From positions 1 through 22,182 of IMG/VR virus record IMGVR_UViG_3300010354_000760: DNA of 22,182 nucleotides, one strand, 5' to 3'. The notes below the pieces were generated by a model. It was not told where the DNA came from, searched no databases, and was given only the letters and a program-made list of their open reading frames with translations. The translations under genes and the position numbers were made by a program. Below are positions 8,995-21,955 of the stretch, piece by piece; the stretch's first letter is position 1, and each line of letters opens with the position of its first letter. The DNA is from a virus.

Positions 8995-9246
8995 TTAACC
9001 CATCGGGCCTCTGGCCATTACACCTTTAGTCGCCGCACCAGTGCCACGAATTTTGATACCCGTGGTTTTAACACCAATATCTCCTGCGGCTTTAGAAATA
9101 ACGCCGACAGACATATCAACGGTATCAAGTTTGCTGCGATTTGCGCGGTTATCAGTCAGCGGACCACCACTCATAGTATGTGGCGGCGCATAAACATCCG
9201 CAGGGCCAATCTCTTTACCTTTGACTTTCAAACTGTATTTGGCCAC
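8995..9246 (-). CDS. Small basic phage protein with GAATKGVMARGPMG tail (83 aa)
   Basis: I place the start at the GTG at 9246 (MAKYSLKVKGKEIGPADVY) because TGGAGG sits five to six bases upstream, inside the last codons of the preceding small gene; a GTG at 9258 is possible but lacks this spacing. The body has YAPPHTMSGGPLTDN and VGVISKAAGDIGVKTTGIKI, and the C-terminus reads RGTGAATKGVMARGPMG, which is Gly/Lys/Arg-rich. No membrane segment. It sits between a 56-aa basic protein and the adaptor-like gene. Probably a small virion-associated protein; function unknown. Confidence 0.75.
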   Translation of the reverse strand: MAKYSLKVKGKEIGPADVYAPPHTMSGGPLTDNRANRSKLDTVDMSVGVISKAAGDIGVKTTGIKIRGTGAATKGVMARGPMG

Positions 9247-9247
9247 G

Positions 9248-9418
9248 TTAGCCTCCACGAGAAGTATTACGCTGATTCATAGCACGCGCCAAATTACGGC
9301 CATACTTCTTCATTTCCATAGAAGTTACGCCGCCTTTTTTCATACCTTTAGCGTGCATTCGTTTTTCGTGGGCTTTTACCTCTTTATCGGCAATAGCCTT
9401 AACCTGTTTTTTGTCCAT
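9248..9418 (-). CDS. Short basic KKGG protein (56 aa)
   Basis: This small gene starts at the ATG at 9418, with AAGGAG six bases upstream, and ends at TAA (9250-9248), one base before the GTG of the next gene. It reads MDKKQVKAIADKEVKAHEKR, then MHAKGMKKGGVTSMEMKK and YGRNLARAMNQRNTSRGG. Lys, Arg and His dominate. The KGMKKGG segment recalls the Gly/Lys-rich proteins encoded at 11056-12463. It exactly fills the space between the zinc-ribbon gene and the 83-aa gene, and its end supplies the ribosome site for its neighbour, so the pair is probably coupled. Function unknown. Confidence 0.8.
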   Translation of the reverse strand: MDKKQVKAIADKEVKAHEKRMHAKGMKKGGVTSMEMKKYGRNLARAMNQRNTSRGG

Positions 9419-9863: not shown

Positions 9864-10820
9864 TCACCTGTAGAACATTTGTCTTGGCACATATCGATCA
9901 GGGGCCTTATCCCGATCTTCCTGCGACGCCAAGAGCCATTGTTCTTCGTACTGCGCCTTAAGGGCGGCAACACGATTGGGGTCCATATTTGGCAATTTCA
10001 TGGACATGCGATAAGCCAAACCAGAAACCATACACTCCACTAACCGAAAGGGGATGTCTTGAGTTCTGGTGCCCGTACCTGCGTCCTGCATACGGCGCAT
10101 ACGCCAATAAACGAACATATAAAACGGATTGCCTACCGATCCTTGATTTGGGATCGGCCAAATATTGATCGACGGAGGCCGGGTCACATAAACGCTAGTC
10201 CCCGCACTATACGTTGTAGCTACAGTATTTTGCTGCCCACGGCCACAATAGCTTATGTACCCAGCGGTGTTACCGGTCTGTGTAAGACTACTATAACTAA
10301 TTATTTCACTACCAATTTTGACAAATCCGGCAGCGGCTAACCCAGTCACGTCGCTCAAATAAATAGTTGCATCAGTGCTACTGGTAACCGCCTGCGCCAA
10401 AGTCGTTGCCGCTGTAGAGTTGGTTTCTGCTGTTTGCCGGTTAATCCAAACCTGAATAGGACGACCTTGTGCGTATTTGTTTGGGATTGTTGAATAAGTA
10501 GATTCGCTAATTCGATTGATATTAATATCAATCTGTGTAGTACCTTGCCCAGCATTTGTGCGAGTTACTTGATCCAACAAATCGATGGTATCGTTAGGAA
10601 GAGCATAAATCGCTTGATTGGGATATAGAGGAATCTGCCCCTCTTCAATAGTCCAAAGGTTGATACCCCGATTTGCCCACTCAATTGTTAGTAGATTGAG
10701 ACTTCTCCGCGCAGTACGAAAGTCATAACCCGTGCGCAATTCAGCACCGCAACGCTCAAACGCCTCTTCAATGAGATCGTTAACGTCAAGGTTAAATACT
10801 GAAGTGCCTGTGGTGGTCAT
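9864..10820 (-). CDS. Head-tail adaptor/tail structural protein (318 aa)
   Basis: The start is an ATG at 10820, five bases after the preceding TAA and without a clear Shine-Dalgarno, so coupling is likely. The N-terminus has FNLDVNDLIEEAFERCGAEL and TARRSLNLLTIEWANRGINL, helical blocks typical of phage neck/adaptor proteins. Middle strands include LWTIEEGQIPLYPNQAIYALP and a Ser/Thr-rich insertion (residues about 130-205). The C-terminal half has INIWPIPNQ, FMFVYWRMRRMQDAG and LVECMVSGLAYRMSMKLPNM, ending DKAPDRYVPRQMFYR. It would connect the portal to the tail. The family look is strong, though which ring it forms is uncertain. Confidence 0.8.
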   Translation of the reverse strand: MTTTGTSVFNLDVNDLIEEAFERCGAELRTGYDFRTARRSLNLLTIEWANRGINLWTIEEGQIPLYPNQAIYALPNDTIDLLDQVTRTNAGQGTTQIDININRISESTYSTIPNKYAQGRPIQVWINRQTAETNSTAATTLAQAVTSSTDATIYLSDVTGLAAAGFVKIGSEIISYSSLTQTGNTAGYISYCGRGQQNTVATTYSAGTSVYVTRPPSINIWPIPNQGSVGNPFYMFVYWRMRRMQDAGTGTRTQDIPFRLVECMVSGLAYRMSMKLPNMDPNRVAALKAQYEEQWLLASQEDRDKAPDRYVPRQMFYR

Positions 10821-10825
10821 GATTA

Positions 10826-11059
10826 TTATCGATGCCTTGCTGTCTTTTTAGCGATCGCCTTGGGCTGTTTTACAAACTGCTTCCCGGCGGCCTTTCCTGC
10901 GCGTTTAGCCCTCGTTGTAGCAGCATATTCAGCCGCTGACAAAGACTTGATAGCGGCTTCAGGAAGGTATCTTTCACCCGTGTCAGAAGATCGCTTACCA
11001 CTTTTAGTTCTCCATTTTTGAGCGGTCCAATTTTTCAGGGACTGCTGTGGAGCTTTCAT
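10826..11059 (-). CDS. Small basic protein, DUF5872-like (77 aa)
   Basis: The ATG at 11059 overlaps the upstream TGA (ATGA), so translation is coupled. The sequence runs MKAPQQSLKNWTAQKWRTKS, then GKRSSDTGERYLPEAAIKSL, a helical SAAEYAATTRAKRAGKAAGK and a Lys-rich end. The W.aqKWrTksGk...GeRYLP..ai..L arrangement matches what I remember as DUF5872, found in large DNA viruses and phages with unknown function. High charge suggests contact with DNA or with the packaged genome, but that is conjecture. It closes the block of small basic proteins. Confidence 0.75.
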   Translation of the reverse strand: MKAPQQSLKNWTAQKWRTKSGKRSSDTGERYLPEAAIKSLSAAEYAATTRAKRAGKAAGKQFVKQPKAIAKKTARHR

Positions 11060-11403
11060 ACTATCTTACCTCGCGTTTTACCACGCTTTGCGATACCGTC
11101 AGCGCGTTTGGAGGCAGAACTTACTTTACCACCTTTAGCAAATGTAGTGCGCAGTAATCTTGGCGCATCTGCATCACCTGCGGCGGGATTTAAACGCTTA
11201 AATCCTTCTGGGTACTGTTCTTGCACATTTAATTCACGTATTACCGTGGGAGAAGCATCACGTTCAGCCGCATCAGAAGACACGGTATCGTTTGCCGTAG
11301 AAGAAATAGTGCTTGAAGGTTCGTCTTTTCTTTTTCTAAATGCGAGAGCACTTGCACCAAGAAGCGCGGCTAAAGCAGCAAGATCTTTACCTCGGCGTGC
11401 CAT
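11056..11403 (-). CDS. Small basic protein with RADGIAKRGKTRG module (115 aa)
   Basis: The ATG at 11403 has AAGGA about seven bases upstream. Residues 1-10 are basic (MARRGKDLAA), residues 8-22 (LAALAALLGASALAF) form a short hydrophobic helix that could touch membrane, and FRKRKDE follows. The middle is Ser/Thr/Asp-rich and probably disordered. The last 28 residues are FAKGGKVSSASK then RADGIAKRGKTRGKIV, the module shared with the 109-aa gene at 11691-12020. ATGA overlap with the next gene. Function unknown. The hydrophobic stretch is only about 15 residues, so a membrane role is doubtful. Confidence 0.75.
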   Translation of the reverse strand: MARRGKDLAALAALLGASALAFRKRKDEPSSTISSTANDTVSSDAAERDASPTVIRELNVQEQYPEGFKRLNPAAGDADAPRLLRTTFAKGGKVSSASKRADGIAKRGKTRGKIV

Positions 11404-11406
11404 AAG

Positions 11407-11694
11407 TTATCCTTTGTACCCGCCGCCCCGAGCCTTATATTGTTTCGCTAGTAGCTGGGCCTTCCTCGCGGACCATTGCCCTGCGGCTGTGCCCTGTACC
11501 GCACGGGATTTGATGGATTCAAACAAAGCCTTACGCATGCTGGGTTTGGTATAAACCCCAGCCTGATTGACTTTAGATTTGACTTTGCCGCCCTTAGCGT
11601 ATTCAGTAAAGTCAGTATCATCCCTGCGGGCCTTTTTCTTCGGCCCGGGCATCTTGGATGGGTTGATATCACCCATTCCACGACTGGCTTTCAC
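11407..11694 (-). CDS. Small basic protein with QWSARKAQLLAKQY motif (95 aa)
   Basis: I choose the GTG at 11694 (MKASRGMGDINPSKMPGPKK), since it overlaps the upstream TGA as GTGA and has AAAGG six bases before it; an upstream ATG at 11724 would lie deep in the neighbouring gene. The protein has SKMPGPKKKARRDD, YAKGGKVKSKVNQAG, VYTKPSMRKALFESIKS and GQWSARKAQLLAKQYKARGG. The VNqAG.YTKP.MRK.LF and QWSARKAQLLAKQYKA blocks are ones I have seen in many phage genomes as an uncharacterised family. The KGG segment links it to its neighbours. Possibly a minor virion or scaffold-associated protein. Confidence 0.78.
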   Translation of the reverse strand: MKASRGMGDINPSKMPGPKKKARRDDTDFTEYAKGGKVKSKVNQAGVYTKPSMRKALFESIKSRAVQGTAAGQWSARKAQLLAKQYKARGGGYKG

Positions 11695-12020
11695 TTTTTG
11701 CCTTTCATATACCCGCCACCACACATAATAATGGTGCCACGAGTTTTGCCACGCTGAGCGATACCGTCCGCACGCTTAGAAGCCGTCATACCACCCTTTT
11801 TATATCCGGCGCCTTGATAGGCTTCATACTCACGAGCAGCTTCAGGGACAGATTCACGCATAGCTTTGGCCGCACGAATATCATCCCGTGCGGATTTAGC
11901 CATAGTAGTTGAGAACTTCGACAAAATGTCTTGTTCCCCTTCAATGCCCTTACGCATGAGCTGACGAGATTGCTCCAGCTTGGCGACCTCTTTTTCGGTA
12001 GGTTTGCGAATATTGGGCAT
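11691..12020 (-). CDS. Small basic protein with RADGIAQRGKTRG module (109 aa)
   Basis: The start is the ATG at 12020 (MPNIRKPTEKEVAKLEQSRQ), with AAGGAG eight bases upstream; the longer frame from a GTG at 12038 is less likely. Residues 1-75 are helical and charged (possible coiled-coil). Residues of about 74-98 are KKGGMTASK then RADGIAQRGKTRGTII, followed by MCGGGYMKGKK. The TGA stop overlaps the next GTG start. The end module is about three-quarters identical at DNA level to that at 11059-11136, so it looks like a duplicated segment. Confidence 0.77.
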   Translation of the reverse strand: MPNIRKPTEKEVAKLEQSRQLMRKGIEGEQDILSKFSTTMAKSARDDIRAAKAMRESVPEAAREYEAYQGAGYKKGGMTASKRADGIAQRGKTRGTIIMCGGGYMKGKK

Positions 12021-12031
12021 TGAAGTTCTCC

Positions 12032-12463
12032 TTAGCACTTACCGCCGTGCTTCATATTTTTACTACCGGCCATAACAATTTGTTTGCCTTTGGTATGACC
12101 CTTCTGCTGCACGGTGTGCTCGCCGTGGGGGCGTTTGCCGCCAGCAACAACTTTACCCATGGCGCTAGCCTTAACCGAACCACCAGCGGCGTAAGCTTTG
12201 CCGCCCTTTTTCATACCTTTAGCTTCGGCCATTTCGTGTTTGACCATGGATTTAGGAGCGCCTTTAGCTTTCATAAAAGACACTTCTTTCTTCATCATTG
12301 CCTTGGACTCTTTCATTTCACCACCCTCTTTAAATTTGCGGCCCTTATCGGCCTCCATAAATTCCTTGCCAACCTTTTGCGGGATGCCAAGGCGTTTAGC
12401 AGCGGCGGGGTTGTTAGCAACCAACGCCATCAAATTGTGTTGTTTACCTGTTTTACTCGGCAT
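12032..12463 (-). CDS. Lys/Gly-rich basic phage protein (143 aa)
   Basis: The ATG at 12463 lies within the end of the holin-like gene (11-bp overlap). Residues 1-38 (MPSKTGKQHNLMALVANNPA, AAKRLGIPQKVGKEFMEAD) form a compact conserved block known to me from many phage genomes. The remainder is low complexity with Met, Lys and Gly: KEGGEMKESKAMMKKEVSFM, KGMKKGGKAYAAGGSVKA, VQQKGHTKGKQIVMAG and KHGGKC. The QKGHTKGKQIVMAG stretch aligns with QRGKTRGTIIMCGG of the next protein, so it belongs to the same module family. Highly positive; possible DNA or membrane-surface contact. Function unknown. Confidence 0.78.
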   Translation of the reverse strand: MPSKTGKQHNLMALVANNPAAAKRLGIPQKVGKEFMEADKGRKFKEGGEMKESKAMMKKEVSFMKAKGAPKSMVKHEMAEAKGMKKGGKAYAAGGSVKASAMGKVVAGGKRPHGEHTVQQKGHTKGKQIVMAGSKNMKHGGKC

Positions 12464-12645: not shown

Positions 12646-12900
12646 TCAACACTTCCATGCCCGCAGAGATTTATTGATCCGACTGTTCGGGTCCTTGGCT
12701 GTCTTCGATGAAGTCAGCTTCTTCTTCATACCGGTCATACGGGCGCAAAAAGACTTTTTCCGGGCGCCCCCCTCGGGTTGAGGGGGTTTGAGACCCGGTT
12801 TCCCCGGATTGGCAGCGTTGTAACTGGCTCGCCCTTTGGCATTCAAACCACCAGAGGGACTTTTGCCTTCTTTGCGTTGCCATGCCGGAGTCTTAGCCAT
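12646..12900 (-). CDS. Small basic protein, DUF6321-like (84 aa)
   Basis: The ATG at 12900 overlaps the end of the preceding structural gene by 8 bp. The sequence opens MAKTPAWQRKEGKSPSGGLN and AKGRASYNAANPG, continues through a Pro/Gly-rich linker, and ends RKKSFCARMTGMKKKLTSSK, TAKDPNSRINKSLRAWKC. This arrangement (TPAWQRKeGKsp.GGLNakGRaSY ... RKKSFCARM.GMKKK ... DPNSRINKSLRAW) is one I recognise as DUF6321, widespread in phages and of unknown function. The basic charge and cysteines suggest nucleic-acid contact. It begins the run of small basic genes. Confidence 0.82.
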   Translation of the reverse strand: MAKTPAWQRKEGKSPSGGLNAKGRASYNAANPGKPGLKPPQPEGGARKKSFCARMTGMKKKLTSSKTAKDPNSRINKSLRAWKC

Positions 12901-13183: not shown

Positions 13184-13669
13184 TCAGTTCTGAGCTGCAG
13201 TTGGTGCCTGAGCGCCGTTAGAAGCACGAACCACATACTCAATGGTGATGGTTGCAGCGCCGGTCGAAGCGGCAGTACCGACGGGAGCAAATACACCAGT
13301 GATGATCACATCAGAAGAGCCGACATTCACAAACGTCGAGGGAGAGGCATAAGTTACGGAAGCACGGCCAGTAGCGATTGGGGTAGTGGTAGCCCCGCCA
13401 ACCGTACCAATCGTAGTTGCACCGGCTTTAACGGTGATGGTATTGCCCGTACCGGCGTTAAACGCAGCGGTTACGTCAATATAGATGTTTAGGATTTGCG
13501 AGCCAGCGGGCAAAACCGCAACTCTCGTATCCGTCGTGGTCGTTCTGGTAATCGCGCCAGACTGAGCAACAGTGGTCAAACCCATGTTGCTGATGGTACC
13601 TGCGGTGGTACCGGTGGTGTCTTTTACCGTGCCCAGACGCCAAGGGCCAAGGTGGGAAGCAAAACCCAT
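13184..13669 (-). CDS. Structural protein after the capsid gene (161 aa)
   Basis: I choose the ATG at 13669 (MGFASHLGPWRLGTVKDTTG), since GAGGAG stands seven bases before it; the frame extends to 13687 but without a ribosome site there. The protein is beta-rich and Ala/Thr/Gly-rich: GTISNMGLTTVAQSGA, VAVLPAGSQILNIYIDVTAA, FNAGTGNTITVKAGAT and a terminal TITIEYVVRASNG. I recall similar proteins encoded just after major capsid genes in metagenomic phages. It is probably a capsid or tail decoration subunit. It is the first gene after the terminator and the structured leader at 13682-13735. Confidence 0.76.
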   Translation of the reverse strand: MGFASHLGPWRLGTVKDTTGTTAGTISNMGLTTVAQSGAITRTTTTDTRVAVLPAGSQILNIYIDVTAAFNAGTGNTITVKAGATTIGTVGGATTTPIATGRASVTYASPSTFVNVGSSDVIITGVFAPVGTAASTGAATITIEYVVRASNGAQAPTAAQN

Positions 13670-13675
13670 GATAAA

Positions 13676-13681
13676 CTCCTC
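13676..13681 (-). promoter_or_regulatory. Shine-Dalgarno GAGGAG adjoining a potential pseudoknot
   Basis: On the minus strand GAGGAG is followed by TTTATC and ATG (13669). The base immediately upstream (13682) ends the second inverted-repeat arm, so folding of that arm would sit directly against the ribosome site. This could gate translation of the 161-aa protein. Confidence 0.6.
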
Positions 13682-13735
13682 ATGCACAAGTCTCTATACC
13701 ATCGGTGCATCGTCCACTAGGCTGGTCGGTATAGA
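13682..13735 (-). promoter_or_regulatory. Leader with interlaced inverted repeats (possible H-type pseudoknot)
   Basis: In the minus-strand RNA, arm 1 is UCUAUACC (13735-13728) pairing with GGUAUAGA (13700-13693), 8 bp. Arm 2 is AUGCAC (13710-13705), inside the loop of arm 1, pairing with GUGCAU (13687-13682), 6 bp. The pairings interlace, so they form either a pseudoknot (17-nt, 4-nt and 5-nt loops) or two competing hairpins. The third loop is tight for spanning 8 bp. No convincing sigma-70 promoter is seen between the terminator and this element. The pairing is read from sequence; function is inferred. Confidence 0.45.
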
Positions 13736-13800: not shown

Positions 13801-14709
13801 TTAGGCTCCTTGAGAGCCGTACATACCCAGCGGATCGCTCCAGCCAAAGCTGTAACGCTCACGAGCCTTGTAGCGCACGTTGCCGGTATCAAAATCACCG
13901 TCCATCGATTGCTGCAAGGGGGTGCGCACGAAGTGCTTCATGCCGTTAGGAACATCAGTGGTCAGGAACCATGCGTTCGTATCGGTCAAGAAGTGGTTAA
14001 TCGTGTAACCCTCGGGGATCGAACCGTTGTTCTTAAGCGCGTTGATGTCGTTGTCAGTGGTGCCGACACGGAGTTCGGTTTCCAACAGACGAGTTGCAAC
14101 GAATTGCAGCGCCGGGGGAACAATCAGTTTCTTGGGGCGAGCGGCGATCAGCAGATCACGTTCGTCAGTCCACAAGCTAATCTGAATAACGGCGGCCTCA
14201 AGCGAGGTCTCATTCAGGTCAGCAGGGGTGCTGGGAATGTTGCTGTTCGTACCACCAGACACCAAGGGGTGCGAAGCAGAGAACAGAGGCACGCCATCGC
14301 CACCATTATAGCCAGCGGTGAAGCCGTTGTTTAGAACAGCAGCAGCCTTGACTTGTTTGGTGTACGCCATAGCACGAGCCAGAGCCTTGGTGTAACGAGC
14401 AGACAGGCTGTCGTACAGGTTGTCCTCGATGGCCTCTTCGGTCAGCGAGAAACCCAGAGCAATGGTTTCATGGTTATAGCGAGCGGACCAAGCTTCCTGA
14501 CCATTGTCGTACGCGATGGCAGAACCTTCGTTCTTCACCGGTGCGGCGCTGAAGCCAGACAGTTTGGTTTCCTCTTCAAAACTACGTTCCGAAGTCTCGG
14601 TTTCGTAGATCTCTTTATGCTCTTCGCCGTAACGTGCGTACTCCAGACCAAACAAAGCGTTCAGACCGGGGAGCAGTTCTTTGAGCAGTTGTGCGCGTGA
14701 AATAGCCAT
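13801..14709 (-). CDS. Major capsid protein (302 aa)
   Basis: The ATG at 14709 has AAGGAG about six bases upstream. The protein starts MAISRAQLLKELLPGLNALF and contains EYARYGEEHKEIYETETSER (an extended arm region, residues about 23-45), SFEEETKLSGFSAAPVKNEG, TLNNGF-like helical segments, RPKKLIVPPALQFVATRLLE and a C-terminus RYKARERYSFGWSDPLGMYG. The length and the order of helix and strand blocks fit an HK97-fold coat protein of moderate size. Genetic context is decisive: it lies after the scaffold and decoration-like genes and immediately before a strong terminator, as for a highly expressed coat protein. It forms the icosahedral shell. Confidence 0.88.
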   Translation of the reverse strand: MAISRAQLLKELLPGLNALFGLEYARYGEEHKEIYETETSERSFEEETKLSGFSAAPVKNEGSAIAYDNGQEAWSARYNHETIALGFSLTEEAIEDNLYDSLSARYTKALARAMAYTKQVKAAAVLNNGFTAGYNGGDGVPLFSASHPLVSGGTNSNIPSTPADLNETSLEAAVIQISLWTDERDLLIAARPKKLIVPPALQFVATRLLETELRVGTTDNDINALKNNGSIPEGYTINHFLTDTNAWFLTTDVPNGMKHFVRTPLQQSMDGDFDTGNVRYKARERYSFGWSDPLGMYGSQGA

Positions 14710-15316: not shown

Positions 15317-15766
15317 TTAAGTTCCTCTACCAAAACTAGTCGTGGATTTTTTCTCTTTATAAAGAGGCATCCTCGGGTCGCTTTGGCGCATGAGATTGTT
15401 GTCTACAGCTTCCGTCTGGGCTTGTGTTTGCTTTGAGTAAAACTCATTGCGTTGGCGAACAAAGTCCACAGGGGTTTTGCAGAGCAACAAACCGCCGATC
15501 TCAATATTGTCCCTATAACGAGACGCAGGATCGACTAACAGTCGGAATTTGGGTTGTTCCTCAACCGGAACAGGCTCCCAACCTTCACGGAGTTTGGCCG
15601 ATAGGTTACGCGGGTCAGCGTTGTTCAGGGTCGAGACACGAATCCAGCGATATGCGTAATCCGGCATTTTGTCCGGTTCAGGCAAAAGCTCGGGCTGCTG
15701 CCACTGCTTAGGGCGCTCCGAGATCGCACGTGTTTCAAGTTCTCTTGCGAGACGGTTTTCAGCCAT
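15317..15766 (-). CDS. Hypothetical phage protein of the head module (149 aa)
   Basis: The ATG at 15766 overlaps the scaffold TGA by 8 bp, so the two are coupled. The sequence is polar: MAENRLARELETRAISERPK, YAYRWIRVSTLNNADPRNLS, AKLREGWEPVPVEEQPKFRL, NIEIGGLLLCKTPVDFVRQR, then a helical EFYSKQTQAQTEAVDNNLMR and a tail ending STTSFGRGT. YRWIRVSTL...DPRNlsaKLREGWEPV and DNNLMRqsDPRMPL are familiar conserved blocks of an uncharacterised phage protein. Position between scaffold and decoration genes suggests a head assembly accessory. No catalytic motif was found. Confidence 0.77.
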   Translation of the reverse strand: MAENRLARELETRAISERPKQWQQPELLPEPDKMPDYAYRWIRVSTLNNADPRNLSAKLREGWEPVPVEEQPKFRLLVDPASRYRDNIEIGGLLLCKTPVDFVRQRNEFYSKQTQAQTEAVDNNLMRQSDPRMPLYKEKKSTTSFGRGT

Positions 15767-16733
15767 TTCGGGCCTCCTTCACAAACTCCTTCACATACTG
15801 CTCAGGAGTGATGCCCAACTTTTTAATCAAGTTGAGCTGGCTCGTCTTCAACTTCACCTTTTGGGGCGAAGTACTCCGAGTTGCCGGTGCCACGACTGTC
15901 GCGGGTTTGGTACGTACAGGCTCGCGGGGCGTTTGTTCTTCTTCCTCCGATGCAATCGTTGTAGTGAATGCTTCAGGGAATCGTTTGCGCATCGTTCTGT
16001 CCAATGCACGGTAATAATCGTCGGACCCAACCACAACGCCATTTGCCTTAAGCTCTTCATGCAGACCTAAAGCATACGCCGTCATACCTTTATTTGGGCC
16101 AAACCACGGATTGCGCTCTTGCCACTCCTCCGCTTTTGGGTCAACCCGTCGGGCTGGTTGCGTCTGTTGAGTAGTTTGTACATCAAAATTTTCCTCCTGT
16201 AAAGAGGGCATTTTGAAGTTTTGCGCTTGCATGACCTTTATGTTGGCCTGCTGCATCGCTTGCTGCGCCTCAACAACTTTATCAGTGTCGCCAGCATCAT
16301 AGGCTTCTTTATAAGCCCGTTTGGCCGCATCAAGCTCTAACTGCGCTGCACGCTGCACCGTAGAAACGTATTCTTTTTCCCCAGTAGACAGGATATTTTT
16401 AATACGTTTATTTTCTTCAAGCAATTTTTGTGCCACAACCAAAGCTTCTTGATGCTCTCGGAGGGCGGCTTCTTTTTCTCTGCGCTCGTCATGCCAGACT
16501 TTGCGCATCTGCTTGAGTTTTTCTTTAACGGTATCGTCGTACTGATCGAGTTCGTCTTTCTCTAGTTCTTCAACCAGAGGTTTTGGCATCGGGGTCTTAC
16601 CACGATCTTCATCGGGAGTATCGTCCTCGATCTCGATTTCAATATTAGATTCTGCAGAAGCATTTTGTTTGTCTTCTGCTTTGCTATCAATTTCATCAGG
16701 AAATTTAAACTCGTTTTGTTCCATCGAAGGCAT
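15759..16733 (-). CDS. Capsid scaffolding protein (324 aa)
   Basis: The ATG at 16733 is preceded by AAGGAG seven bases upstream; an ATG at 16724 has no such site. Residues 1-65 are very acidic (IEIEIEDDTPDEDRG). Residues of about 65-175 are heptad-like, with many Lys, Glu, Gln and Ala (VWHDERREKEAALREHQEAL), consistent with coiled-coil. Residues 195-265 hold a compact block including NPWFGPNKGMTAYALGLHEE. The C-terminus is basic and helical (KKLGITPEQYVKEFVKEARN), a common coat-binding end of scaffolds. Position before the coat gene supports this. It would shape the procapsid and then leave. Confidence 0.83.
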   Translation of the reverse strand: MPSMEQNEFKFPDEIDSKAEDKQNASAESNIEIEIEDDTPDEDRGKTPMPKPLVEELEKDELDQYDDTVKEKLKQMRKVWHDERREKEAALREHQEALVVAQKLLEENKRIKNILSTGEKEYVSTVQRAAQLELDAAKRAYKEAYDAGDTDKVVEAQQAMQQANIKVMQAQNFKMPSLQEENFDVQTTQQTQPARRVDPKAEEWQERNPWFGPNKGMTAYALGLHEELKANGVVVGSDDYYRALDRTMRKRFPEAFTTTIASEEEEQTPREPVRTKPATVVAPATRSTSPQKVKLKTSQLNLIKKLGITPEQYVKEFVKEARNG

Positions 16734-16747
16734 TTTGTACTCCTTCC

Positions 16748-17173
16748 TTATTTACGTTTAATACCACGGGGATCGTCAACCACACCTTCAACACTGTCGT
16801 CGTTGATGATGCGAAATTCACGACCATGAATAACCAAACGGGAACCGGTATGCGGGCGAATCAAAACAAAATCGCCTTTTTTACACCATGGGCCGGTGGG
16901 AAACCGTTTTTCGTCTTTGTAGCAATCAGGCCCAAGATCAACTACAAAAAGAACAGTGGTCAAGGTTTCTTCAACACGGATGGTCTCGTCTGATTTAATC
17001 AGACCGACCTCTCCTTCAAATTCCTTGTCCACTTCAGGCACCGCACACAAAATACGATAGCCTGACGGGCGGGGTAGTTGTTTGGCTTTTTCCTCTGCGC
17101 TTGCAGCAAAGTTATAAGCCCCGACAACTTGCGGGTTGCTGGCGTCTGTAGCCAGCAAAATAGAATCAGTCAT
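16748..17173 (-). CDS. GroES/Cpn10-like co-chaperonin (141 aa)
   Basis: The ATG at 17173 overlaps the upstream gene by 8 bp. Residues 1-32 are an extension. Residues of about 33-133 follow the Cpn10 order: LPRPSGYRILCAVPEV as the first strands, EFEGEVGLIKSDETIRVEET as a GroES-type mobile loop with the hydrophobic GLI, then VLFVVDLGPDCYKDEKRF, GPWCKKGDFVLIRPHTGSRL and REFRIINDDSVEGVVDDPRG. These align by eye with GroES VLAVGNG, VKVGDIVIF and LIMSESDILAIV. It is probably a co-chaperonin that replaces or adjusts host GroES to fold capsid protein, as T4 gp31 does. It lies between portal and scaffold, close to the coat gene. The length exceeds GroES (97 aa). Confidence 0.75.
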   Translation of the reverse strand: MTDSILLATDASNPQVVGAYNFAASAEEKAKQLPRPSGYRILCAVPEVDKEFEGEVGLIKSDETIRVEETLTTVLFVVDLGPDCYKDEKRFPTGPWCKKGDFVLIRPHTGSRLVIHGREFRIINDDSVEGVVDDPRGIKRK

Positions 17174-17357
17174 CCGAGTTCTCCAATCTTTCTGCTAGGT
17201 CTTGGATTACAGAGCATGCGGCCTCAAGACCTCGTAACTGGCCGCATACGAAACGATACTCATCAAAATCTTTGCAATTACCCCGTGCAACAGCTTCTGT
17301 CAGCACTTGCATACGATCTTTGTATTGCTCAAGTAAATACTCCAAATTTTTGTCCAT
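17166..17357 (-). CDS. Small hypothetical protein downstream of portal (63 aa)
   Basis: The ATG at 17357 overlaps the portal TAA as TAATG. The sequence MDKNLEYLLEQYKDRMQVLT, EAVARGNCKDFDEYRFVCGQ and LRGLEAACSVIQDLAERLEN is helical and acidic. The DEYRFVCGQLRGLEAA segment is a recurring motif in small proteins between portal and scaffold in many phages. I know no function for it. The TGA stop lies inside the start of the GroES-like gene, so the portal, this gene and the co-chaperonin look translationally coupled. Confidence 0.78.
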   Translation of the reverse strand: MDKNLEYLLEQYKDRMQVLTEAVARGNCKDFDEYRFVCGQLRGLEAACSVIQDLAERLENSDD

Positions 17358-19837
17358 TACTCACCTTTTGTCGGTTGTGAATGTTTTGTTGATAAGTGTT
17401 TGAGCACGTCAACGCTCAAGGTAGCCATCATCTCTTCACGCGATGCCTTGCTATTTACAGCGGCTTTAACGGCATCTATTTTGATACGTTTGTCGTCGGT
17501 CTGCTGCTGCGCGGCAATCCGTTGCCGCTCCACTTCAAGTTGTGCGGCTTTTAGTTGCGCGTCGGTCTGATCTTTCGCCGCTTTGCGCTGCTGTTCCTGC
17601 GCTTTAATCTGCAGCTCCTGCATCTGTATCTGGACCAACGGATCTTGCGCTTGCTGCTGTGCCTGTTTAGCCGCCATCTCTTGCTGATTAGTCAACAGCA
17701 ACTGCTGAGCCGCTTGCGCCAGCATGGGAGACAACCGCGCCTCAACTTCAGGTGACAAGTAGTTATCCTCACCATCCTCATTTTTCTCGGGGGGCAACGG
17801 CATACCCAACTGCTGCTCAATCTGACGCCGGTACTCAAAGCCCAAGTGCTCACTGATGTGCGCCATCATGGACTGTTGCAACATCTTGGCCTGTGGGCTG
17901 TTCTGCAGCAACATCTGTATCTTCGGGTCGTTCATCGCAGACATATGCACGGTGATATGCGCTTGATGGTCTTGCATCAAGAACGCCTTGACCGGACGCA
18001 TCATCAGGATGTGCTGATTCTCCGTCACGGGGTCCATCGGCTTCATGTCGTCTTCCATCGGCACGAGCTTGTCGGCATCCTTGATACCCATCACGTCCAA
18101 CATCTGACGATTTAATAGCGGCATGTTGAATATCTGCGGATTGTTCTGCGCCATCTGGAACACAGCCTGCATCTGCACAATCTTCTGCGCCATAGTCGCA
18201 GCGTTGGGGTCTGACACAGGAATCACGTCTACGTTGTCGTAGTCGCTACGTTTTGCCATGCGGTTGCCAACATCCGGCTCGTAGTTATACTCCTCGGGGG
18301 TATAGTCCGCGATGATGTCTTTGAGAAGGCCCAGCTCCTGCTTCATCGAGTAGTGGATGCGCGCTTGAATAGCTGACATGTTCTTAAGCGTACGCTCAAG
18401 AATAGCCAGCGTCGTACCCACCGGAGCCTGTGCGCTCATGTCAGACAGACTCAAGTCTGCGGTGTTTGCAAACCTGCGTCCCTCCTCGATGATCTTGTCC
18501 ATCAACCCAGCCAAAGTCTGACTAGGCTCCTTGTACGGCAGGGGCAACAAGTTGTCGCGCAGCGTGCCAGAGGGCACATCAACATCGCGCCACTCCCCCG
18601 GACTGATCGGCGTATCGTCGCCTTTTACCCGCATGCCGCGAGTTTTAAATCCCCCGGGGAGATTACTAAGAGTACCAGCATCAACAAGCTGCCTAATAAG
18701 ACTAGTACCGGACTTAGCAAAAGCGCCAATAAGGTGGATAAGTCCAAAATAATAGAAACCAAACCCGGGAACGTATCCGTAGTGGACGAAGTGCTGTCGC
18801 GGCTGATAGGTATCATCGTCAGGCTCCCAGTTACGCCGGATCGCCAAAACCTTCTGTGACCCCTTCTCGATTGTGATCACATATGGCAGAGCGATGCCCG
18901 TCTCCTTGCCACGCTCTTTGTGCTCGTATCCCTTGAGGTTACGGTGCACGTGCATCTCAAGAAATTTATATCTATTGTCAGACGTAGCCCTGAAGCCCAG
19001 CTTTTCAGCGATCTTCTTCTCTACTTCATCCAACACGTTATCAGGTGGTCCTAGATCTATATCTCTGTAGAACCCTGCGTACTGCAAGCGCTTCAAATCG
19101 TTCTCAGACTTACGCATCACATGCGTAATCCGTTCCGCAGAGGCCAGATCAGACGCACCATATGGCACCACAAGATCTTCTGCGGGGATGAACATTGACA
19201 CCTGCCGCTCAAGATGAGGGTCGTAATACACCTTCTTGAACGCATTACCCGCCAACCCCAGACCCCACAACATCCGCTCGTGCTCAGGCCGATACTCCTT
19301 CATCACGTCGGTTAATTGGTAGTTCATGTCCTCTTGGACACGCATCGCGGATTCTTTTTTAGCCGGTGTTTCACGACCAACGATTTTTGTTTTAACTGGA
19401 CCGCTGGCGGGAAACGTAGCCATCATGGTCTCTGACTGAAACTTAACCAGAGCTTCAGCGAGGATCGGGTGATACACCCCGCACGCGCCTTCCCACGGCT
19501 CGGCTCGCTCTTCAATTTTTAAACCCAACAGCTCAAGTCCATCAACATATGTCTGCAGCCAATCTTTACGGGAGGCCACGTCTTCGTCGTAATCACCAAC
19601 TAATTCAGAAGCGATTGCTTCCAAATCTTCTTCGCTCATGTGCTCGGCAAGATTTGCGCTGAAGTCTGGCTCATCTTCTTCGCCGGGTTTAATTTCAAGA
19701 ATAGGCTGACCATCAATACCAAGCACAACTGATTCTGGGTCTTCAATTTCAATTTCGATCTCAGGCCCTTCCTGCTCCACAAGATCGTCAATACCCAAGG
19801 GTGATTGATACAGTGCTTTGTCAATATTTGTAGCCAT
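17357..19837 (-). CDS. Portal protein (826 aa)
   Basis: The ATG at 19837 is preceded by GAGGTAG. Residues of about 1-75 are strongly acidic. The central part (residues about 75-600) has DWLQTYVDGLELLGLKIEER, EPWEGACGVYHPILAEALVK, FQSETMMATFPASGPVKTKI and PEHERMLWGLGLAGNAFKKV, the pattern of phage portal rings, then a CFG-like region with DLSDMS...IHYSMKQELGLLKDII. Residues of about 690-790 are a Gln/Lys-rich coiled-coil (QIQMQELQIKAQEQQRKAAK). This dodecameric ring sits at one capsid vertex and passes DNA. At 826 aa it is longer than most portals (about 450-750), mostly through its acidic and coiled-coil ends. Confidence 0.87.
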   Translation of the reverse strand: MATNIDKALYQSPLGIDDLVEQEGPEIEIEIEDPESVVLGIDGQPILEIKPGEEDEPDFSANLAEHMSEEDLEAIASELVGDYDEDVASRKDWLQTYVDGLELLGLKIEERAEPWEGACGVYHPILAEALVKFQSETMMATFPASGPVKTKIVGRETPAKKESAMRVQEDMNYQLTDVMKEYRPEHERMLWGLGLAGNAFKKVYYDPHLERQVSMFIPAEDLVVPYGASDLASAERITHVMRKSENDLKRLQYAGFYRDIDLGPPDNVLDEVEKKIAEKLGFRATSDNRYKFLEMHVHRNLKGYEHKERGKETGIALPYVITIEKGSQKVLAIRRNWEPDDDTYQPRQHFVHYGYVPGFGFYYFGLIHLIGAFAKSGTSLIRQLVDAGTLSNLPGGFKTRGMRVKGDDTPISPGEWRDVDVPSGTLRDNLLPLPYKEPSQTLAGLMDKIIEEGRRFANTADLSLSDMSAQAPVGTTLAILERTLKNMSAIQARIHYSMKQELGLLKDIIADYTPEEYNYEPDVGNRMAKRSDYDNVDVIPVSDPNAATMAQKIVQMQAVFQMAQNNPQIFNMPLLNRQMLDVMGIKDADKLVPMEDDMKPMDPVTENQHILMMRPVKAFLMQDHQAHITVHMSAMNDPKIQMLLQNSPQAKMLQQSMMAHISEHLGFEYRRQIEQQLGMPLPPEKNEDGEDNYLSPEVEARLSPMLAQAAQQLLLTNQQEMAAKQAQQQAQDPLVQIQMQELQIKAQEQQRKAAKDQTDAQLKAAQLEVERQRIAAQQQTDDKRIKIDAVKAAVNSKASREEMMATLSVDVLKHLSTKHSQPTKGE

Positions 19838-19845
19838 GTTCTACC

Positions 19846-20526
19846 TCAGTAGTATTCCCGTTTCCTACGAAACTCACGGGGTTCATCTTGTTCATCGGTC
19901 TCAAGTTGAATAAAGCCCCCTCTGCGGTACCGCAGTAGTGCCTGAGTCATCGAGTCCACCATGTCGTCATGCTCACCAGACGGGAAGGAGGCGACTTCTT
20001 CAACCAGTTCTTCCGCCCAACGGGTGTCGGGAATCCATACTCGCCCACTTGCGAATAGGTCGGCTACTGCGTTCAGACGAGCAATCTTGTCATTACCTTT
20101 GCTCGGTGTAAATTCTTGCACAGGTATGCCCATCTGTCTAAGTTCAAATATTAAGGGCGAACCCGCCGCTTTTGCTTCAATAATGCACGCATCGGGGTCC
20201 CACTCTTTAAACTCTTGATACGCCCGCGCTTTTAATTCAGGAAACTCCATCCGTTTTTTAAACGCATTGAGCAATATTATGTTCGATTGTGGCAGTCCAA
20301 CCTCGTCGTCTTTATAGAACACCCCCCACGTGGTGCACGCCGAATAGTCCGCTCGCTCAGTCTTGAGAAACGCCGTATCCCACGACTGGATTATGAACTC
20401 ACACTGAGGCGGGTGGTCCTCCTCCCATATCTGCCACCACTCCCGCTTGATGATCGCACTTACATCAGAGGTGGGCTGCTGCATGTACTGGGCTTGCCAT
20501 TTAGCCACCGGCAGCTCAGAACGCAA
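19846..20526 (-). pseudogene. terL: Terminase large subunit, C-terminal nuclease part (after an in-frame TGA)
   Basis: This shares the frame of 21357-20560 and continues it after one TGA codon at 20562-20560; the frame is open from 20559 and the first possible start is a TTG at 20526. Counting from 20526, residues 46-53 are IIQSWDTA, with the first acidic nuclease residue (Asp50). IIEAKAAG (Glu117) and the terminal HDDMVDSMTQAL (Asp187, Asp188, Asp191) complete the RNase H-like headful nuclease triad. It ends KREYY then TGA. The nuclease cuts the packaged DNA. Without read-through or correction the ATPase and nuclease domains are separated. Confidence 0.85.
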
Positions 20527-20559: not shown

Positions 20560-21357
20560 TCATAAGGGTTTACCCGAAGGTAGGATAGCTGGGAACTCAA
20601 TCACCCGCCAGTCCTCGCCCTCCCGCTGCGCAGCGGCTTTTAACACCTGACCAGTCAAATCTTTCTTAGACCAACGAGTCATCACCACCACGATCGCCCC
20701 GCCCGGCTGCAGGCGCTGTCGCGGACCCGACGTGTACCACTCGTAAGTCTTGTCGTAAATCTCAGAATTAGTCTCAGCCAGCGTGGCTTCTTGTTCTGAG
20801 TGAGGGTCGTCGATGATGAGCAAGTCTGCGCCCTTGCCAGTTACCGCACCACCGATACCAATAGCAAAGTACTCGCCCGAATAGTTAGTTGCCCAGCGAC
20901 CCGCCGCCTTACTGTCGGCCTGCAGACTCACTTCTGGGAATATATCTTTGTAACGGTCCCCGTCCACCAAGTTACGCACTTTGCGACCGAACCCCACAGC
21001 AAGCTCTGCCGTGTGCGAAGTCTGAATAATCTTTTTGCCCGGGTACATCCCAAGGAACCAAGCTGGCAACAGGTACGACGCAAACTCCGATTTTGTATGC
21101 CGAGGCGGCATATTAATAATTAAACGCTTGATTTTGCCTTCAGCCACCTGCTGAAACGCTTCGGCCATCTTCTCGTGATGCCAGCCGTGAATAAAATTAG
21201 GCCAGACATATTTTACGAAGGCCATAAAGTCCGATTTAACTAACTCTTTAGTTTTAGCCCGCCTCGCTTCGGCTATTAAGGCACCGACCTTCTGCCGCGC
21301 AGCCTCCGGCAAGTTAGGCAGCGCCTTCTCGGCAGCTTCAAGAAGCTCGGGGCTCAC
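20560..21357 (-). pseudogene. terL: Terminase large subunit, N-terminal ATPase part (ends at in-frame TGA)
   Basis: The start is a GTG at 21357 (MSPELLEAAEKALPNLPEAA), which overlaps the preceding gene by 20 bp. Residues 83-90, MPPRHTKS, are a terminase-type Walker A; residues 179-184, LLIIDD, are Walker B; VVVMTRW at 223-229 is the downstream coupling motif. The frame stops at TGA after PSGKPL. It continues in the same frame with PQFWSYKELDAL and then SELPVAKWQAQYMQQP. In terminases I recall, the position after PSGKPL is Trp (PLWP), so TGG has become TGA. The full protein would be 503 aa. It is the ATP motor that drives DNA into the capsid. Confidence 0.87.
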
Positions 21358-21955
21358 CTAAATCCTCTGAGTTTTCTTCGGATTCGGTCGTAACCGGACC
21401 AAATTCGGCATCCAAATTGATCTCTGCTACCGATTTTGGCTCTTCTTTGGGAGTTATATCGATTACTTCCCCAGTAAAAAGCTCCAAAGTCTTTTTTAAG
21501 TCAGATTCGATGTCGTGAATGGTGCGATGAGTGACTGTTATGTCGATTCGATCGCTAAAACTACCCACATTTGACAAGCGCCCCAAGTTTTCTAGCGCTT
21601 TTAAACGAACTTTTGGGTCTGGATCAGTGGATTCCAATATAAATCGGTTAGTCACGTAGTTGCGCAACCGCCGCCCCACGTCCAAAACCTCTTGGTCCCA
21701 CTCATTTAGGATTGATTCTAAGTGAACTATTGCACCGGGCGTAGTTGTTTTTGGCGCCGGGGCTTTGGATGCTGCAAATAACGAACGGGCTTGCGCCTTG
21801 TCAGCCTCGTTTATTGCAACTTGCAGCCCATTATTAGCCAGTTCTTGTACCGTCTGGAACATGGCATGAGCTTTTTCTCGGAAGTCGTCGATCTCTTCCG
21901 GCTTAGTATCAAAAGGCAAAGGTATTCCTACCTCTGGCGTTATAACGATTGGCAT
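21338..21955 (-). CDS. terS: Terminase small subunit candidate (205 aa)
   Basis: I use the ATG at 21955 (MPIVITPEVGIPLPFDTKPE); a GTG at 22009 in the same frame adds 18 residues. Neither has a clear Shine-Dalgarno, so the start is uncertain. The protein is helical: PEEIDDFREKAHAMFQTVQE, a Pro/Thr linker, ILNEWDQEVLDVGRRLRNYV, KVRLKALENLGRLSNVGSFS and SDRIDITVTHRTIHDIESDL, with an acidic tail. The order of the LNEWD...RRLRNYVTNR..ES.DPD...R..ALE.LG block matches proteins that precede the large terminase in related phages. It overlaps the terL start by 20 bp. The DNA-recognition role is inferred from context and homologue recall. Confidence 0.7.
   Translation of the reverse strand: MPIVITPEVGIPLPFDTKPEEIDDFREKAHAMFQTVQELANNGLQVAINEADKAQARSLFAASKAPAPKTTTPGAIVHLESILNEWDQEVLDVGRRLRNYVTNRFILESTDPDPKVRLKALENLGRLSNVGSFSDRIDITVTHRTIHDIESDLKKTLELFTGEVIDITPKEEPKSVAEINLDAEFGPVTTESEENSEDLGEPRAS

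Follow-up and report, generated by a model that had tools for sequence, protein, structure and literature searches.

A short C-terminal tag on otherwise unrelated small proteins encoded between the capsid and adaptor genes of HTVC023P-like phages

We analysed the whole of the IMG/VR virus record IMGVR_UViG_3300010354_000760 (22,182 bases; hereafter the window), which represents a tailed phage with its structural genes on the minus strand in the order terminase, portal, GroES-like protein, scaffold-like protein, major capsid protein, cement-like protein, a cluster of small open reading frames (ORFs), adaptor-like protein and then tail genes. Proteins of the small-ORF cluster end in a common peptide of about 20-25 residues, S-A-S-(K/S)-R-A-D-G-(I/C)-A-x-(R/K)-G-K-T-(R/K)-G-(K/R/T)-(M/I)-(V/C/I), hereafter the tag, which as judged from sequence marks one capsid clade of mostly uncultured aquatic phages. 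The tagged proteins of the window and their tag copies, scored with a hidden Markov model (HMM) of the tag, were:

12032-12463, minus strand: 143-residue protein with an N-terminal MPSK block, a Lys/Gly linker and a divergent tag (phrog_16759, related to phrog_22033/25121 'virion structural protein')
12035-12124, minus strand: tag copy 3 (divergent), GEHTVQQKGHTKGKQIVMAGSKNMKHGGKC, from alignment to the tail of locus L119
11691-12020, minus strand: 109-residue tagged protein with a helical N-terminal domain (alignment and AlphaFold model)
11694-11801 plus stop, minus strand: tag copy 2, long-tail type, KKGGMTASKRADGIAQRGKTRGTIIMCGGGYMKGKK, with parts KKGGMTASKRADGIAQRGKTRG and TIIMCGGGYMKGKK; HMM 46.8 bits
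11056-11403, minus strand: 115-residue tagged protein with a hydrophobic N-terminal stretch (LAALAALLGASALAF), a long linker and a C-terminal tag
11059-11136 plus stop, minus strand: tag copy 1, common type, KGGKVSSASKRADGIAKRGKTRGKIV, ending 3 residues after RGKTRG; HMM 50.7 bits

The original prediction, made from the letters of the window, described a shared end module in two neighbouring proteins. This was borne out: 11056-11403 and 11691-12020 both end in KGG..ASKRADGIA(K/Q)RGKTRG, and their HMM scores compare to at most 11.7 bits in a reversed-ORF control. The predicted DNA identity of roughly three-quarters likewise agrees with the 38 of 51 positions (75%) shared by the two copies over the 17-codon tag core; a repeat finder returned 79% over 47 nt. 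A third protein had been aligned with these two, and it is indeed a divergent homologue, as the tail of 12032-12463 aligned to long-tailed tag members (..DGVAMKGKTKGKQIVMAGNKGMKYGGKC, L119) with a score of 114, compared to 63 for the best of 300 shuffles. The tag HMM did not list this tail among the window ORFs, and a 17-residue tail type present in other loci matches it; the long-tail type of copy 2 also recurs in other loci. The KGG segments of the 95-residue (11407-11694) and 56-residue (9248-9418) proteins, previously counted with the module, had to be discarded, being Lys/Gly stretches that lack the core and have no tag-HMM match. The term 'paralogous cluster' fails for the N-terminal parts, which are unrelated; the proteins are not paralogues, their kinship being confined to the tails.

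Both genes bearing the clear copies are preceded by plausible ribosome-binding sites (AAAGGA for 11056-11403, AAGGAG for 11691-12020). An AlphaFold model of 11691-12020 (11 sequences; mean predicted local distance difference test, pLDDT, 63.8) placed helices at residues 9-70 (block pLDDT about 67-83) and predicted the tag-bearing residues 72-109 to be disordered (block pLDDT 37-44). A Pfam Gram_pos_anchor match on 11056-11403 was rejected, since it scored 18.3 bits against a cut-off of 20 and lay on the hydrophobic N-terminus, not on the tag.

A DNA pattern for RADGxAxRGKTRG returned at least 120 stretches from IMG/VR; every listed locus is tagged by construction. The tag HMM identified further copies, 271 ORFs (at least 20 bits) in 128 loci, compared to 152 ORFs for the strict pattern. 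Conserved within them are the specific residues D-G-x-A-x-(R/K)-G-K-T-(R/K)-G, so that the module amounts to more than Lys/Gly bias. The tails are indeed Lys/Gly-rich, as a chance or low-complexity similarity, or a translated DNA or RNA element, would have it. We nevertheless regard such an origin as exceedingly improbable: it is refuted by the reversed-ORF control, by the mere 11 stretches that a looser DNA pattern matched in 257 Gb of bacterial and archaeal genomes (four with tags by HMM), and by the variation of synonymous codons. Within a locus, 47% of tag codons were identical, compared to 37% expected and 41% between loci. Codon choice is therefore nearly free, indicating selection on the protein rather than the DNA and ruling out a DNA repeat or RNA element.

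Placement of the tag is strongly C-terminal. Exactly three residues separate the core from the stop in 209 of 297 ORFs (at least 15 bits), and 55 more have tails of 10-15 residues, often T(M/I)(V/I)MCGGG.xKG or TMIxMxxGGxxC; a single ORF at this threshold contained more than one tag domain. The N-terminal parts fell into 110 BLAST clusters among 289 ORFs, a number inflated in some cases by wrong start codons, and the well-defined families, including the MPSK family, the DUF6321 family and that of 11691-12020, have nothing but the tail in common. A Walker A reading of GIAQRGKT, which fits GxxxxGKT by its letters, was rejected: the tagged Planktothrix phage Pag-Yong1 has GRT, the tails of the DSL-LC04 clade lack the pattern, and the C-terminal peptide, being disordered in the model, would form no P-loop fold.

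Mean net charge was about +7 for the tag region and about +5.7 for the N-termini. Together with the structural gene position, these values are compatible with a tag that mainly binds nucleic acid, the proteins being protamine-like condensers of packaged DNA, or binders of phage RNA or DNA in the cell, with the N-termini as spacers. This we consider quite unlikely, given that the non-basic residues D2, G3, A5, G8, T10 and G12 are conserved like the basic ones while R7 and R11 exchange with K, a pattern exceeding the needs of plain charge, and given the strong C-terminal placement. The tag is hydrophilic and lacks a hydrophobic segment. Five of the 289 N-terminal parts exceeded the hydrophobicity threshold, but four of these seem to result from out-of-frame translation of a tag sequence lying upstream. 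The variable tag positions -1, 4, 14 and 15 agreed within a genome, across unrelated proteins, beyond expectation (p <= 0.006), an agreement that may stem from a common partner, from copying of the tag, or from both.

The tags occupy one slot in the genome, bounded in the window by the capsid and adaptor genes. The remaining genes in and around this slot were:

17357-19837, minus strand: portal
16748-17173, minus strand: GroES-like protein (phrog_3188)
15759-16733, minus strand: scaffold-like protein
13801-14709, minus strand: major capsid protein, upstream boundary of the tag slot (phrog_371, 8e-23; tree and slot analysis)
13184-13687, minus strand: cement-like protein, between the capsid gene and the tag slot (aligned with the DSL-LC04 'cement protein')
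12900 down to 10826, minus strand: small-ORF cluster
12646-12900, minus strand: DUF6321 protein, a second portable basic block (Pfam PF19846, 71.3 bits, above the gathering cut-off of 28.5)
11407-11694, minus strand: untagged conserved neighbour (phrog_17747; its KGG is not the tag)
10826-11059, minus strand: untagged conserved neighbour (phrog_14910)
9864-10820, minus strand: head-tail adaptor-like protein, downstream boundary of the tag slot (aligned with the DSL-LC04 'Pam1 adaptor protein')

Searching with a profile of the module, as the original prediction had proposed, placed 2-5 copies in 16 of 18 long records (42-70 kb), packed in one stretch between capsid and adaptor; the two exceptions are records that stop short of it. 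Where both boundary genes were present, tags lay between the major capsid and neck adaptor genes in 105 of 108 cases. All 120 listed pattern loci carried markers of one HTVC023P-like phage group, and portal and capsid searches placed the window with HTVC023P-type podoviruses. The window capsid is 73% identical to that of Pag-Yong1 and 57-64% identical to those of Phage DSL-LC04, HTVC023P, HTVC027P, 023Pt_psg01 and CRP-901. In the capsid tree, the window clade (support 0.996) had the tag in 33 of 34 complete slots, compared to 1 of 47 in DSL-LC04-like, 0 of 74 in CRP-901-like and 0 of 31 in HTVC023P-like sister clades (1 of 152 together); capsid relatives were sampled from four starting points as the best matches per query, so intermediate lineages are under-sampled in these sets. 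A tblastn search of GenBank phages with the tag gave no match. Reading GenBank relatives by hand revealed one tagged isolate genome type, deposited in three records, with a 308-residue protein in the same slot that ends in GRDGCAKRGRTKGRFI; Planktothrix phages Pag-Yong1 and Pra-JY27 are tagged isolates.

Tagged proteins might instead act in the infected cell, the tag binding some factor of the host or the phage, for instance one involved in transcription or host takeover, with the slot a moron-like accessory locus in the structural operon. Hypervariable content is typical of accessory loci, and the tagged proteins have no recognised structural domains. This alternative is nonetheless very unlikely, because near-complete genomes confine the tags to the slot, a few weak or related matches aside, and because the MPSK block is common to families annotated as virion structural proteins.

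A few matches of a different kind were observed. Small tail-region proteins at L093:11860-12048 and L209:42-227 carry the core (ADGVA.KGKTKGKNLGD and similar) at the N-terminus instead. Among contigs from metagenome-assembled genomes (MAGs), that of L210:162-2003 opens with the tag, which is fused to a GC-rich ORF, and is assigned to Patulibacter; it is probably an assembly chimaera. Tagged contigs L203, L205 and L209, whose bins were assigned to Chitinophagales, Gammaproteobacteria and an unnamed bacterium, are probably phage contigs in MAGs and may hint at hosts.

We compared the turnover of tagged proteins with that of their neighbours. Between phages with 86-95% identical capsids, a tagged N-terminus had a counterpart in 2-5% of comparisons. 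In the same phage pairs, counterparts were found in 94-100% for the DUF6321 protein (98-100%), the 10826 protein and the adaptor (97-99%), and in 61-67% for the 11407 protein. A laxer search raised the value for the N-termini to 8.5%, compared to 70-100% for the small conserved neighbours. The N-termini are Lys-rich (13.5%), with Cys and Trp at 0.1% each. Hypervariability is likewise expected of surface proteins, and the slot lies between the cement and adaptor genes; the tag might accordingly anchor variable, disordered, basic decoration or neck-completion proteins to the outside of the virion or at the neck through a conserved C-terminus. We think this unlikely, as the N-termini lack a recognisable folded display domain and their Lys-rich, Cys/Trp-poor composition would suit DNA contact better than surface display.

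A signal for docking to one shared structural partner would account for the position and portability of the tag, its clade-specific divergence and the hypervariable payload. By analogy with known systems, we give an even chance to the reading that the tag, at the C-terminus of hypervariable head-associated proteins, serves to target them to the capsid or to dock them there. Under this docking reading, the tag, carried by a number of small, basic, Lys-rich proteins that are mostly disordered and unrelated at the N-terminus, would most likely bind one conserved morphogenetic component (scaffold, capsid inner face or portal) during prohead assembly. Different and quickly replaced payload proteins would thereby be carried in the head, and might condense the DNA or be ejected with it. 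Judged by gene position, hypervariability and analogy, the best-supported candidate mechanism is a signal for cargo loading or packaging. A fuller version, to which we assign somewhat less than even confidence, holds that the tag is an apparently protease-independent virion-loading tag with which one aquatic clade would load a hypervariable, largely disordered payload for delivery into the host, the tag co-evolving with a clade-specific capsid, scaffold or portal receptor.

The capsid targeting sequence (CTS) of phage T4 is N-terminal and is removed by the prohead protease, and encapsulin cargo-loading peptides are about 10 residues long and bind a hydrophobic pocket. Like the CTS of IPI, IPII and IPIII, the tag is a short terminal peptide on otherwise unrelated small proteins of one phage, and its payloads are hypervariable between related phages, as are the diverse T4 internal proteins, in which just the CTS is conserved (PMC3012670). 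Unlike the CTS, it is C-terminal and occurs in genomes with no detected S78, S14 or S49 protease. Encapsulin cargo-loading peptides are C-terminal and sit on different cargoes encoded beside an HK97-type shell gene (PMC7355545), and tagged genes also lie near an HK97-type shell gene (assigned by phrog_371); in contrast to these peptides, the tag is 20-25 residues long and strongly basic. As with the LPXTG and PEP-CTERM sorting tags, one tag is found on many unrelated proteins of a genome; it differs from them in lacking a hydrophobic segment and, as far as the comparison of gene families with HTVC027P and partly covered untagged relatives shows, an evident dedicated enzyme. No profile or chain matching the tag was found in Pfam, PHROGs or PDB, and none of the PDB searches, run with the tag, 12032-12463, DUF6321, 8995-9258, 11407-11694 and the capsid protein as queries, returned a useful match. 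A literature search found no paper on the tag motif, DUF6321 or Pag-Yong1 and no matching packaging-signal description, the sole match to the letters RGKTRG being an unrelated imaging paper. The tag is thus without prior description in the databases and literature searched, and is functionally closest to known targeting peptides.

Strong support for the original prediction, in which a portable tag shared by differing small proteins suggested a common partner, comes from the 110 N-terminal clusters, the C-terminal placement and the single slot. One partner it had named, a protease, is disfavoured as far as cleavage by a known prohead protease is concerned: the 15 tagged genomes gave no S78, S14 or S49 match while controls were positive, and an S77 search lacked a positive control. 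Most families shared by all 14 near-complete tagged genomes were also present in the untagged HTVC027P, which makes an ordinary morphogenetic protein a more likely receptor than a dedicated enzyme; a 463/97-residue family (all 14) and a TerS-like protein (12) had no match in partly covered untagged relatives.

Several observations weigh against docking in the head. Order-promoting residues make up 14.6% of the tagged N-termini, compared to 27.9% of the capsid protein, unlike the folded T4 IPI*, and 100 tagged representatives matched just two Pfam families, with no recognisable enzymatic or inhibitor domains. A basic tag of about +7 might do no more than bind DNA, and the tag is absent from sister phages whose capsids are 57-64% identical; recombination is another possible source of the agreement between tags of one genome. 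The literature search found no virion proteomics for any relative; for this reason the head location and ejection are, like the binding partner and delivery into the host, what we infer.

Should the tag be a virion-loading signal, its 20-25 residue profile would reveal which 'hypothetical' proteins of an aquatic phage group are carried in the virion and possibly injected, proteins otherwise invisible to annotation (the two Pfam families above). It would also bring to podoviruses the T4 principle of a conserved targeting peptide on a hypervariable set of injected defence proteins, here at the C-terminus and with no evident protease, and would provide a short tag of natural origin with which foreign proteins could be loaded into phage heads.

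Related tails occur in the DSL-LC04 clade, whose orthologues of 11691-12020 keep the helical domain and end in another, related tail (RGQGKVIRSKKTRIC or RGQGAARKTKGCKIC), part of which aligns with the tag. Like the tag, this tail (KGGLVTSRGQGKVxRSKKTRIC / RGQGAARKTKGCKIC) is C-terminal on orthologous N-terminal domains and found on two families; unlike the tag, it has a different core and occurs once per locus. In the form KGGLVTSRGQGKV.R.KKTRIC (L270:7313-7657 and loci L354-L433), it terminates proteins of two N-terminal families and is present once in each locus; its gene sits in the portal-GroES gap rather than the capsid-adaptor slot.

DUF6321 (PF19846) and the MPSK block (phrog_16759) resemble the tag as small basic blocks of this locus that move between proteins, and each occurs together with the tag in some loci; six other loci encode homologues of the window DUF6321 protein in which the tag is placed after DUF6321. 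Both differ from the tag in sequence, and DUF6321 occurs in 539 phage records, mostly of cyanophages, whereas the tag was found in the HTVC023P-like group only. MPSK-block proteins at L318:2408-2932, L332:8421-8804 and L350:3764-4288 have a DUF6321-like tail (PQPEGG..KKSFCARMSG..KRWKC) in place of the tag, suggesting that these two portable blocks may be interchangeable at the C-terminus. In a phiKZ-type phage, the MPSK block is a stand-alone 58-residue protein near internal head protein genes, at best circumstantial evidence for a head role.

Possibly another tag is represented by RG.GA(A), found near the C-terminus of the HTVC023P proteins L271:10656-11393, 21481-21864 and 22144-22509; the window protein 8995-9258 carries RGTGAATKG. 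Elsewhere in the window, the large terminase is split into two ORFs, 19846-20526 and 20560-21357, as it is in G008, most relatives having one ORF of about 490-545 residues; a frameshift, an intron or a sequencing error may account for the split. Positions 1-1362 encode a tail-fibre-like protein with repeated GGTFITSxNIGSQSV units.
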